64,000 bases of DNA from Aquabacterium soli (GTDB taxonomy: Bacteria > Pseudomonadota > Gammaproteobacteria > Burkholderiales > Burkholderiaceae_C), in assembly GCF_003933735.1 (NCBI RefSeq), contig NZ_RSED01000001.1:186001-250000 (forward strand), written 5' to 3'. Position 1 is the stretch's first letter. Every line of letters begins with the position of its first letter. A model generated the notes under the pieces. That model searched no databases. It saw only the letters and a list, made by a program, of their open reading frames with translations, and was not told the origin of the DNA. Below, piece by piece: positions 31,458 through 35,118 of this stretch. The position numbers and the translations under genes are program-made.

Positions 31458-32120
31458 ATGAGCGAGATTTCCCAAGTGGCCGCCGGTGTGCGGCACAGCC
31501 CGCTGGACCGCGCCCTGATCGCGGTGGATTCGGCCTTGCGCACGGTCTGGGGCACGCATGTGGCCTCGCGCGCCTGCCCGCGCCCCGCCCTGGAGGGCGA
31601 GTTGCTGTCCGACACCGACCGCCGCGAATCGGCCGCACTGATGCGCGTGAATCACGTCGGTGAGGTCTGCGCCCAGGCCTTGTACGCCTCGCAGGCCTTG
31701 GGCACCTCCGACCCGGCGCTGCGCGCCCATTTCGAGGCGGCCGCCGACGAAGAGACGGACCACCTGGCCTGGACCGAGCAGCGCCTGCGCGAATTGGGCG
31801 GGCGCACCAGCCTGCTCAACCCGCTGTGGTACAGCGGCGCCTTCGCGATCGGCCTGCTGGCCGCACGCGTCGGTGACAAGGTGAGCCTGGGCTTCGTGGT
31901 CGAGACCGAGCGCCAGGTCGAGCAGCACCTGCACAGCCACATGTCGCGCCTGCCGCCGGGCGACACGGCCTCGCGGGCCATCGTGGCGCAGATGCGTGAC
32001 GACGAGGCCGAGCATGCGGAATCGGCCCAAAAGGCTGGCGGCGTGCCGCTGCCGCTGCCGGTGCGCGCCCTGATGCGCGCCGCCGCCAAGGTGATGACGG
32101 TCACGGCCCACCGGCTCTGA
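31458..32120 (+). CDS. coq7: Ubiquinone biosynthesis hydroxylase Coq7 (DMQ monooxygenase)
   Basis: Di-iron membrane-associated monooxygenase hydroxylating 2-polyprenyl-3-methyl-6-methoxy-1,4-benzoquinone in the penultimate step of ubiquinone synthesis. 220 residues. Ferritin-like iron ligands are seen: Glu in [42 protein letters not shown] and [10 protein letters not shown]. The hydrophobic [20 protein letters not shown] probably contacts the membrane quinone. It is convergent with the OsmC-like gene. Confidence 0.95.
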
Positions 32121-32141: not shown

Positions 32142-32564
32142 TCAGGCCGCGACGATCTCGAAGCTGGTCGTGATCTCGGCCGTCTTGGCCAGCATGATGC
32201 TGGCCGAGCAGTACTTCTCGTGGGACATCTGGACGGCGCGCTGAACAGCCGCCTCTGTCAGGTTCACGCCCGTCACCACGAAATGCATGTTGATCTTGGT
32301 GAACACCTTCGGGTCGGTCTCGGCGCGGTCGGCCGTGAGCTTGACCGAACAGCCCCGCACATCGTGGCGGCCACGCTTGAGGATCAGGACCACGTCGTAG
32401 GCCGTGCAGCCGCCGGTGCCGGCCAGCACGGTTTCCATGGGGCGGGGCGCCAAGTCGCGGCCACCGCCGTCCGGGGCGCCGTCCATGTTGATGACGTGGC
32501 CGCTGCCGGTCTCGGCCATGAAGGCCATGCCCGAGGCGGGCTGCCAGTGGATGGTGCATTCCAT
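32142..32564 (-). CDS. OsmC family protein (YhfA-like)
   Basis: 140 residues from ATG 32564, chosen for GGAGA six bases upstream; an ATG at 32588 would add 8 residues. OsmC-fold proteins reduce organic hydroperoxides using two cysteines, and both are here: GTGGCTAYDVV (about 50) and MSHEKYCSAS (about 115). The wording ETVLAGTGGCTAYDVVLILKR is typical of the YhfA subgroup, whose activity is less certain than Ohr/OsmC. Single gene, convergent with coq7. Confidence 0.92.
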   Translation of the reverse strand: MECTIHWQPASGMAFMAETGSGHVINMDGAPDGGGRDLAPRPMETVLAGTGGCTAYDVVLILKRGRHDVRGCSVKLTADRAETDPKVFTKINMHFVVTGVNLTEAAVQRAVQMSHEKYCSASIMLAKTAEITTSFEIVAA

Positions 32565-32651
32565 CGGGTTTCTCCGTGGCGCGTTCATGTAAAAACGCGA
32601 CGCATTCTTATGAAGGTGTGAAAGTTGTGATTGTGCCCGTGCCGCTGCCTG

Positions 32652-32680
32652 TTGACGCGGCCGCCTGGGAAGCGTTTAAT
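32652..32680 (+). promoter_or_regulatory. Strong sigma-70-like promoter for the intergenic RNA
   Basis: TTGACG (32652-32657), 17-bp spacer, TTTAAT (32675-32680). The -35 matches consensus in 5 of 6 bases. It points into a gene-free stretch that ends in an intrinsic terminator, so its product would be an RNA of about 180 nt. Confidence 0.6.
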
Positions 32681-32716
32681 TTCACACAGAGGCGGTCGGC
32701 TTTGTGGTGAAAACCC

Positions 32717-32745
32717 TTGTTGGCAGCCACCGCATTCCGTACACT
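32717..32745 (+). promoter_or_regulatory. Second, internal promoter for the small RNA
   Basis: TTGTTG (32717-32722), 17-bp spacer, TACACT (32740-32745). Initiation near 32751 would give a shorter RNA of about 118 nt that keeps both hairpins and the terminator. Confidence 0.5.
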
Positions 32746-32836
32746 TTGATACGTACTGCTGAACTTTCCCGCCACGGCGGGTTCTCAACAGTGTGTTTTG
32801 TTTGTCTCCTCCACCCTCCTCCTTTGGTGGATTCAA

Positions 32837-32869
32837 ACCCGAGCCGATTCGTCGACTCGGGTTTTTTTT
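32837..32869 (+). terminator. Intrinsic terminator of the small RNA
   Basis: ACCCGAG (32837-32843) pairs with CTCGGGT (32856-32862); an inner CGA/TCG pair closes a TTCG tetraloop. The stem runs directly into eight T residues (32862-32869). A strong textbook terminator on the + strand, where no protein-coding gene ends. Confidence 0.85.
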
Positions 32870-32895
32870 CGGCGGTACGGCAGGGCAGCGGCAGC

Positions 32896-35016
32896 TCAGG
32901 GCTGCTGGTTGAGCGTCTGCGCCGAGGTCTTGGCCTTGGCCGCCATCTCCTCGCGCAGGCGACGCAGCTTGTCGCGCGGGCTTTCTCCTGGAACGCCGCC
33001 GCCGCCTTCGCTCAGCTTCATCTCCGCGATGAAGCGGCTGGGAATGGCCTGAACGTACTCGCGGCCCTTCTTTCGGCGCTTGAGCGCGCTCACGCCCAGT
33101 GTCAGCCTGGCTCGCGTGATGCCCACGTACATCAGCCGGCGCTCTTCCTCGATCTGCTGGGGCAGGATGTCGCCTTCCTCGCGTGAGAAGGGCAGGGAGC
33201 CCTCGTTCACGCCGGCCAGCACCACGTGCGGCCATTCCAGGCCTTTGGATGCATGCAGCGTCGACAGGGTCACCACGTTCTGGTCGGCATTGCGCTCGGC
33301 CAGGCTGGTGATCAGCGAGATCAGCTGAGCCACCTCGATCACGCTCTTTTTCTCGGTCTCGACCGACATGCCGCCGTCGTTCTCGATCTCTCCGCCACAG
33401 CGTTTGGCCACCCAGTCGATGAAGTCCAGCACGTTGGTCCAGCGGGCCGCTGCGATCTTCTCGTTCTCTTCGTTGTCGTAGAGGTGCTGCTCGTAGCCGA
33501 TGTCCTTGAGCCACTCCAGCAGCAGCGCCTTGGCGTCTTCGCTGCCATAGGTCTGGCGGGCGCGGTATTCCAGGTCATTCACGTAGCGGCCGAACTCGTG
33601 CAGGCTGCCCAGGGCGCGCGCGCTCAGCGCGGCGGCCAGCGATTCGGCGAACAGGGCCTCGAACAGGCTCACCTTCCACTGGCCCGCGAACTCGCCCAGC
33701 GTGCCCAGCGTCTGGTGGCCGATGCCGCGCTTGGGCGTGGTCACGGCGCGCAGAAAAGCCGGGTCGTCGTCGTTGTTGAGCAGCAGGCGCAGCCAGGCGC
33801 ACAGGTCCTTGATCTCTGCCTTGTCGAAGAAGCTCTGCCCGCCCGACACCTTGTAGGGGATGTTGGCCTTGCGCAGCGCCTGCTCGAACGGGCGCGCCTG
33901 GTGGTTGGCGCGGTACAGGATGGCGAAGTTGCTCCAGTCGGCCCGCGAGGGATCGGCCTGGTTGGCCGCCAGCAATTGGGCGTGCAGCACCTGGAAGTGC
34001 GACACGGCGCGCTCGGCCTCGTGCTCTTCGTTGTCGCACTCCATCAGCTTGATGGGCTCGCCTTCGCCCAGGTCCGACCACAGCGTCTTGGGAAAGAGCT
34101 TGGGGTTGAGCTGGATGACGTTGTTGGCCGCACGCAGGATGGCGCTGGTGGAGCGGTAGTTCTGCTCCAACGGGATCACCTTGAGGGTGGGGAAATCCTG
34201 CGGCAGGCGCTTGAGGTTGTCCAGCGTGGCGCCGCGCCAGCCATAGATGGACTGGTCGTCGTCGCCCACGGCGGTGAAGATGCCTTCGCTGCCCACCAGC
34301 AGCTTGAGCAGCTCGTACTGGGTGGCGTTGGTGTCCTGGTATTCATCGACCAGCACGTGGCGCAGCTGGCGCTGCCACTTCTGGCGCACGTGCTCGTGCT
34401 CGGCCAGCAGCTTGAGCGGCAGGCTGATCAGGTCATCGAAATCCACCGCCTGGTAGGCGGACAGGCGCTCCTCGTACAGCTTCATCACCTTGGCGGCCAC
34501 CAGCTCGTCGTCGGTGGTGATGTGCGGTGCGACCTGGCTGCTGTTCAGGCCCATGTTCTTCCACAGGCTGATGGTCCATTGCCATGAGCGCGCCTGCTTG
34601 GCGTCGGTGGTGCCGCCGGCATCGCGCAGGATGCTGGTCACGTCGTCGCTGTCCAGGATGGAGAACTGAGGCTTCAGGCCCAGGGCCGTGCCGTCTTCGC
34701 GCAGCAGGCGCACGCCAAGCGAGTGGAAGGTGCAGATCAGCAGCTTGCCCGCGGCCTTGGCGCCGATCAGGGCCTTGGCGCGCTCGCGCATTTCGGCGGC
34801 CGCCTTGTTGGTGAAGGTGATGGCGGCGATCTGCGAAGGCGCGAGGTCTGCGCCCTCGCCGGGCTGCAGCAGGCGCGCGATCTTCTGCGTGATCACGCGT
34901 GTCTTGCCCGAGCCGGCACCGGCCAGCACCAGGCAGGGGCTGTGCAGGTGCAGCACGGCCTCCATCTGGGCCGGGTTCATGGTGGCGGCGCCCGCCTGGG
35001 GAGAATGGGAAGACAT
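32896..35016 (-). CDS. rep: ATP-dependent DNA helicase, Rep/UvrD (SF1A) family
   Basis: 3'-5' superfamily 1 helicase, most like Rep, which clears proteins from replication forks. 706 residues from ATG 35016 (a longer frame to 35100 has an unlikely Pro/Arg-rich start). SF1 motifs in order: Q-motif NPAQMEAV, Walker A GAGSGKTR (33-40), motif Ia ITFTNKAAAEM, DEYQDTNATQYELL, GDDDQSIYGWRGA, LEQNYRS, TLHASKGLEWPHV, and RRLMYVGITRAR. The C-terminal about 40 residues are charged. UvrD is an alternative name, but the length and short tail favour Rep. Confidence 0.93.
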   Translation of the reverse strand: MSSHSPQAGAATMNPAQMEAVLHLHSPCLVLAGAGSGKTRVITQKIARLLQPGEGADLAPSQIAAITFTNKAAAEMRERAKALIGAKAAGKLLICTFHSLGVRLLREDGTALGLKPQFSILDSDDVTSILRDAGGTTDAKQARSWQWTISLWKNMGLNSSQVAPHITTDDELVAAKVMKLYEERLSAYQAVDFDDLISLPLKLLAEHEHVRQKWQRQLRHVLVDEYQDTNATQYELLKLLVGSEGIFTAVGDDDQSIYGWRGATLDNLKRLPQDFPTLKVIPLEQNYRSTSAILRAANNVIQLNPKLFPKTLWSDLGEGEPIKLMECDNEEHEAERAVSHFQVLHAQLLAANQADPSRADWSNFAILYRANHQARPFEQALRKANIPYKVSGGQSFFDKAEIKDLCAWLRLLLNNDDDPAFLRAVTTPKRGIGHQTLGTLGEFAGQWKVSLFEALFAESLAAALSARALGSLHEFGRYVNDLEYRARQTYGSEDAKALLLEWLKDIGYEQHLYDNEENEKIAAARWTNVLDFIDWVAKRCGGEIENDGGMSVETEKKSVIEVAQLISLITSLAERNADQNVVTLSTLHASKGLEWPHVVLAGVNEGSLPFSREEGDILPQQIEEERRLMYVGITRARLTLGVSALKRRKKGREYVQAIPSRFIAEMKLSEGGGGVPGESPRDKLRRLREEMAAKAKTSAQTLNQQP

Positions 35017-35118
35017 CGACACGGGAACGGCTGGGCGCGCGGGACAAGGGACGCAAGGAGGCGGGCGGGGTGAAGGCCTCAGCATAGAGCATGACGCCAT
35101 CCCACGCCTTGAAACGGC

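Follow-up and report, generated by a model that had tools for sequence, protein, structure and literature searches.

The 64,000-nt stretch of Aquabacterium soli DNA analysed here (the window) very probably carries a real and well conserved small RNA gene. Its RNA belongs to an already-known Rfam family, RF02278 (Betaproteobacteria toxic sRNA), and S17, the name used in Bordetella for the sRNA linked to coq7 and osmC, is very probably its orthologue. Rfam cmscan matched the RF02278 model over its full length (1-64 of 64) at 32803-32870 on the + strand, with 66.2 bits against a cut-off of 50 and an E-value of 4.1e-11 for the window. RF02278 is the sole Rfam family above cut-off within the 64-kb window, and the whole genome contains one copy over cut-off. 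Because this score exceeds the cut-off, the RNA is not of unknown kind. The earlier note on this DNA, which had noticed the RNA correctly and proposed an Rfam search, misread it in part by taking it as unannotated; the betaproteobacterial toxic sRNA class that it named as comparable is the very family to which the RNA belongs. The presumed action of this family is to silence genes by masking their ribosome-binding sites. The features of the locus are the following.

31458..32120, + strand: coq7 (Pfam PF03232)
32142..32588, - strand: OsmC-family gene, divergent neighbour (Pfam PF02566, 63 bits)
32652-32680, + strand: promoter-like TTGACG-17-TTTAAT, not conserved
32717-32745, + strand: promoter TTGTTG-17-TACACT, conserved in place
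32751..32796, + strand: 5' leader hairpin, from the fold
32752..32869, + strand: predicted primary transcript of 117-118 nt, with the conserved promoter upstream
32761-32767, + strand: leader element GAACTTT
32803..32870, + strand: RF02278 core, predicted processed S17S-like RNA of ~67 nt (Rfam cmscan)
32803..32812, + strand: Site 1, UGUCUCCUCC, the predicted seed, which the predicted fold leaves unpaired up to 32809
32807-32812, + strand: UCCUCC, from the sequence
32810..32831, + strand: hairpin 1, from the fold, with variants in relatives
32816-32825, + strand: hairpin 1 loop CUCCUCCUUU (Site 2), 16S-tail-like, from sequence and fold
32835..32869, + strand: intrinsic terminator with UUCG loop and eight T, from fold and sequence
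32896..35100, - strand: UvrD/Rep helicase gene, downstream neighbour (Pfam PF00580 and PF13361)

The elements first noticed at this locus, namely two promoter sequences with 17-bp spacers, two hairpins, and a UUCG terminator with eight T, are all present in the + strand gap between the - strand OsmC-family and UvrD/Rep genes. In the predicted fold, the leader hairpin is followed by an unpaired stretch ending in UUUGUCUCC, by the hairpin with loop CUCCUCCUUU, and by the terminator, with z-scores of -4.16 (69 nt), -4.18 (119 nt), and -2.28 (whole 218 nt). The two-hairpin fold and the CU-rich unpaired 5' end and loop agree with RF02278 membership, and the alignment contains relatives with UCCAU/AUGGA instead of UCCAC/GUGGA in the stem of hairpin 1. 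Checking the 16S 3' end of the same genome, GGCTGGATCACCTCCTTTCT, confirmed that it has CCTCCTTT in common with the loop. A further UCCUCC lies just 5' of the loop. The gene in the gap has all the marks of an sRNA with CU-rich, anti-Shine-Dalgarno-like stretches, and the gap very probably holds a real small RNA gene. By its own criteria, a simple promoter/terminator scanner found 0 promoters and 0 terminators in this gap, because TTGTTG has three of six matches to TTGACA, position 2 of TTTAAT is not A, and mismatches interrupt the terminator stem; we accept the downstream promoter despite this miss because it is conserved in the genus.

Searches at E 0.001 gave RF02278 matches in 34/42 genomes of the genus, 255/299 of the family, and 188/300 of the order, a threshold at which sibling RNAs can be included and at which the sub-cut-off matches take in the phasin-locus RNA (see below). 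Counting matches above the curated cut-off, the figures are 15/42, 208/299, and 114/300, and 14 control genomes gave 0 matches. Genomes of the window's family have one to three matches each. Four genomes of one other family (G343, G391, G510, and G598, family f8) have 7-9 matches each at E 0.001.

The position of the gene is also maintained. Among the 30 best-scoring, not randomly chosen, loci at each level, the 3-kb locus contains osmC in 30/30 of the family and 20/30 of the order, and coq7 in 29/30 and 15/30, so that osmC is missing within 3 kb from 10 and coq7 from 15 of the order loci. Another 88 loci were fetched by a near-exact core (osmC in 82, coq7 in 27); they carry the core by selection and were left out of the conservation counts. 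Thirteen genus genomes had no fetched osmC-locus match, eight of them no match of any kind, and osmC was found in 10 of the 13. One of these ten loci is cut by a contig end, and the other nine gave a diverged copy of the RNA in the same place, picked by eye with a short pattern. The genus alignment comprises 38 loci from the 42 genomes, leaving out three without an osmC match and the one at a contig end.

Comparison of these loci reveals which part of the RNA is kept. All 60 best-scoring family and order loci contain GTCTCCTC, in a set biased to good matches; this count was made on those loci and not on the Site 1 alignment, which had been excised by a pattern that itself includes GTCTCCTC. 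In the 38 genus loci, CTCCAC is present in 37, while GTCTCC stands at the 5' end in 23 and is changed in 15; therefore, the seed is not strictly held throughout the genus. The earlier note had put the 16S-like loop at the centre, and as a conserved core this loop is not borne out within the genus: CCTCC occurs in the first predicted loop of 10/38 loci and is absent from it in 28/38, a rough count from single-sequence folds (for L006, a different hairpin was scored as the first one). Where the downstream promoter stands, a strict TTG-(16-18)-TANNNT is found in 26/37 loci, the window among them (one of the 38 has no anchor), against 0.17 expected from mononucleotide shuffles, and the transcripts predicted from these 26 promoters are 112-124 nt long (117 nt for the window). 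Of the two promoters proposed at the outset, this one, which would give the ~118-nt RNA, is thus conserved, whereas the upstream one, with its 183-nt RNA, is restricted to 2/38 loci, the window and the sister species L004, when the region from 70 to 320 nt upstream of the core is searched. The osmC-locus element is marked by its 5' seed and promoter rather than by the 16S-like loop. A raw-sequence finding is thereby placed in a named family with its kept part known, so tests can aim at the right bases. As a side observation, the leader motif GAACTT is present in 35/38 genus loci, and many of the genus's phasin 3' UTRs contain something similar.

The link to S17 is based on genomic place and on likeness of form. 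In B. pertussis, S17 is reported to be flanked by a glycosyltransferase gene and coq7 (PMC11722255), and coq7 and osmC linkage is found both in the window and in relatives; the window RNA is therefore very probably the S17 orthologue. According to the same source, a 27-nt stretch from position 2 of the short form, S17S, is 100% conserved. The window has the 27-nt GTCTCCTCCACCCTCCTCCTTTGGTGG, which has the length and place of that stretch and is a candidate for its counterpart. The two RNAs are further alike in a sigma-70-type promoter and in having a precursor and a short form of ~67 nt, predicted here; they differ in the precursor, predicted at ~118 nt here and reported at ~190 nt in B. pertussis, where evidence points to RNase E as the enzyme that shortens it to 67 nt (PMC11722255). 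S17 is also described there as dependent on Hfq and as a direct repressor of BP2158, with compensatory mutations at Site 1, and its deletion raised 91 genes (92 in the abstract).

Known RF02278 members include B. cenocepacia ncS03, ncS05, ncS27, and ncS62 and H. seropedicae Hsnc059/063/086/107 (PMC5688073, PMC7011215). Like them, the window RNA scores over the cut-off and has two hairpins and, in Site 1 and the loop, CU-rich complements of ribosome-binding sites. Unlike Burkholderia, for which three to five copies per genome are reported (PMC5688073), this genome has one over cut-off; the same source reports growth inhibition on overexpression for family members.

Two other Rfam families fell well below their cut-offs, NmsR of Neisseria (RF02877, 25.6 bits against 52) and anti-hemB of Burkholderia (RF02837, 22 bits against 49.5). 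Both have CU-rich unpaired stretches before the terminator and probably the same kind of action. The CcsR/cuckoo RNAs of alphaproteobacteria carry in a loop the CCUCCUCCC motif, a C-rich anti-Shine-Dalgarno sequence. The window RNA resembles them in having such a motif in a loop; it differs in its motif, CUCCUCCUUU. RF02278 is the only Rfam family searched in which it passes the cut-off.

By analogy with S17, the window RNA would be transcribed from the housekeeping-type promoter at 32717-32745 as a precursor of ~118 nt and cut by RNase E near 32800-32803, just before UGUCUCC. This would release a two-hairpin RNA of 67 nt, whose U-rich end would suit Hfq. Its 5' Site 1 (UGUCUCCUCC), aided by the CU-rich loop, would pair to mRNA ribosome-binding sites reading GGAGGAGACA or close to it, and the pairing would lower translation of a chosen set of genes. 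We consider it probable, with good though not full confidence owing to the homology, that the window RNA acts in this way, as an S17 orthologue and RF02278 member whose processed form represses selected mRNAs via Site 1 with Hfq. Family membership, place, promoter, Site 1 in strong relatives, and structure come from the present analysis, while processing, Hfq, and repression through Site 1 are taken over from published S17.

The window RNA's own target tests are weak. In its own genome, we looked for an excess of GGAGACAA ribosome-binding sites before ATG as a proof of a Site 1 regulon, and none is clear: it accounts for 15 of 50 GGAGMMAA-ATG sites, against 11, 13, and 11 for the other three octamers. 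Separate octamer statistics on 464 kb of this genome were set aside because they covered too few genes. Over 306 roughly called gene leaders, the duplex energies predicted for the window RNA and for the 16S tail are correlated (r 0.52).

The earlier note had proposed a different mode of action, in which the loop and Site 1 jointly mimic the 16S tail, dampen translation broadly, and slow growth. We find this unlikely. The sharing of CCTCCTTT with the genome's own 16S tail fits it, as does the energy correlation, which leaves room for the breadth implied by titration of Shine-Dalgarno sites; but the loop motif is often lost within the genus, being missing from the first predicted loop in 28/38 loci. 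Overexpression of ncS27 slows the growth of B. cenocepacia and its silencing raises growth (PMC5688073), whereas S17S overexpression is reported to leave exponential growth of E. coli unimpaired, with a modest effect on stationary-phase entry, and 91 genes, not all, rise in the S17 deletion (PMC11722255). General toxicity of the window RNA is not supported, and selective repression via Site 1 is still the preferred reading.

A second RF02278 match in the same genome, outside the window and below threshold (33.4 bits, cut-off 50), lies downstream of a phasin gene (PF09361, 105.6 bits) on the same strand, 111 nt beyond its stop codon.

L002 1501-1574 (G000:C96:58152-58225), - strand: phasin 3'-UTR RNA with seed UUGUCUCCUC, hairpin GGUACC...GGUACC, and terminator

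Between the phasin stop codon and this RNA, no terminator was seen by eye. In all 70 distinct genomes examined, phasin is directly upstream, 15-211 nt before the seed; these comprise 22 loci of the genus, another 28 among the 30 top family matches, and 20 that were hand-picked along the score ranking, the lowest at 36.4 bits (72 rows in all, with two duplicates). TGTCTCCT is invariant in 57 aligned copies, and the stems covary, with 98.0% of 899 cells paired, 13/16 pairs changed on both sides, and 0/500 shuffles reaching the observed value of any of the five measures used.

Within the genus, model R2 matched 39/42 genomes (one of them weakly) and 31/31 good genomes, and TTGTCTCCT is present in all 30 phasin loci read. 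For the family, a model of the phasin RNA, R1, matched 200/299 genomes; this is an upper figure, and the tally is rejected as a count of phasin RNAs because some matches coincide with RF02278 matches (G132, G238, G284). Across the order, R2 matched 33/300 genomes, and among 30 of these loci read, one outside the family (L269) is clearly phasin-linked and many others are RF02278-type RNAs at their own loci. At another locus outside the family (L292, ~1495-1550, - strand), a weak R2 match without the full seed follows a phasin-like gene, with GATCTCCTCG and a terminator within a few dozen bases of it, possibly a diverged phasin RNA.

An Rfam scan of 12 phasin loci gave no family over cut-off in any of them. 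Assignment to RF02278 is rejected on the score in the own genome, and assignment to ncS54 (RF02871) on 30.8 bits against 43 (L155); no phasin gene was found at the 12 loci examined of 13 ncS54 matches. Judged by titles and the beginnings of abstracts, the open-licence literature yielded no description of a phasin 3'-UTR RNA. From its sequence, this sibling with the same seed as the window RNA looks like an undescribed RNA at the end of the phasin messenger, and it is more novel than the window RNA.

The sibling raises the alternative that the genus osmC-locus RNA is a drifting copy, freed from constraint while the phasin 3'-UTR RNA carries the same seed. Such drift would agree with a seed changed in 15/38 osmC-locus copies beside TTGTCTCCT intact in 30/30 phasin-locus copies of the genus, and with a phasin RNA matched in every good genus genome. 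We rate it slightly less likely even than mimicry of the 16S tail: the window's own lineage retains the 27-nt core unaltered, and most genus loci still have the promoter, leader, and terminator, three elements that a relic could do without. That the gap has no sRNA gene, only a bare terminator or chance hairpin, is very improbable, since the scanner's failure to see a promoter or terminator stands against the Rfam score, a promoter far in excess of expectation, a seed and place kept in strong relatives, and a T run on the + strand where no + strand gene is seen ending (coq7 ends 680 bases upstream, beyond osmC).

The complement of the phasin RNA seed, CGAGGAGACAAC, occurs 66 times in the 42 genus genomes, against 4 for the backwards pattern. 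Thirty-seven of the occurrences coincide with R2 matches and are the phasin RNA itself. Of the other 29, 27 lie just before the start codon of a reading frame of at least 60 codons, with a gap of 0-4 nt in 26 and of 11 nt in one; part of this placement comes from the Shine-Dalgarno core, because the backwards control has no such core. The genes behind these sites are alkB in ten cases (three checked with Pfam and the others recognised by a shared protein start; the ten leaders are nearly identical and not independent), a PF10118 hydrolase in four, and acyl-CoA dehydrogenase and a beta-propeller protein in two each. One each was found for fatty-acid desaturase, enoyl-CoA hydratase, acyl-CoA-binding protein, a GDSL hydrolase (below cut-off), OmpW, an AdeT-type binding protein, an ABC binding protein, nitronate monooxygenase, and a response regulator. 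As a control from one genome, a small set of 12 genes behind other GGAG octamers (12 of 20 sites, those with reading frames of at least 80 codons) contains no beta-oxidation gene; it consists of ATP synthase, AsmA, two alpha/beta hydrolases, Rhs-type, HAD hydrolase, HlyD, AraC, and flagellar hook genes, and three without a family.

With one representative per gene family, the complementarity extends past CGAGGAGACAAC: a C precedes it in 10/13 gene families (P 0.0014), and a further A precedes that C in 6/10 (P 0.013). The complements at the ribosome-binding sites of alkane and fatty-acid genes reach 12-14 nt. In the own genome, the sole start-site CGAGGAGACAAC belongs to alkB, and the protein encoded there has a solved alkane 1-monooxygenase as a match (E 4.7e-125).

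L395 ~1497-1512 (G000:C50:4361-4372), - strand, outside the window: alkB ribosome-binding site, 14-nt complement of the phasin RNA

The predicted duplex of the phasin RNA with this site has 14 bp and -27.6 kcal/mol, which is equalled by 2/306 leaders. For the window RNA, 70/306 leaders bind at least as well as alkB, which is therefore rejected as its special target; alkB stands out for the phasin RNA only.

Taken together, these predictions suggest a joint reading of the two RNAs, which we put forward tentatively and at somewhat less than even chances. The phasin mRNA of many genera of the family would end in an undescribed, nuclease-released sRNA with seed UUGUCUCCUC. While storage granules form, this sRNA would block the ribosome-binding sites of alkane and fatty-acid oxidation genes, with alkB, acyl-CoA dehydrogenase, enoyl-CoA hydratase, acyl-CoA-binding protein, and others as candidate targets. 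The osmC-locus RNA would be its partner, with a seed that may be drifting as the phasin RNA carries the same one. If this is true, carbon supply is under feedback from the mRNA of a granule protein. The testable idea is that of two RNAs with one seed and common targets, one of which rides on the phasin mRNA, and it would tie carbon storage to the control of lipid and alkane use in many environmental bacteria.

Eight osmC loci of the genus (L028-L030, L140, L142, L145, L147, and L148) keep the leader and terminator with a different hairpin 1 and have the seed changed to CUCUCCAC, providing a natural experiment on seed change.
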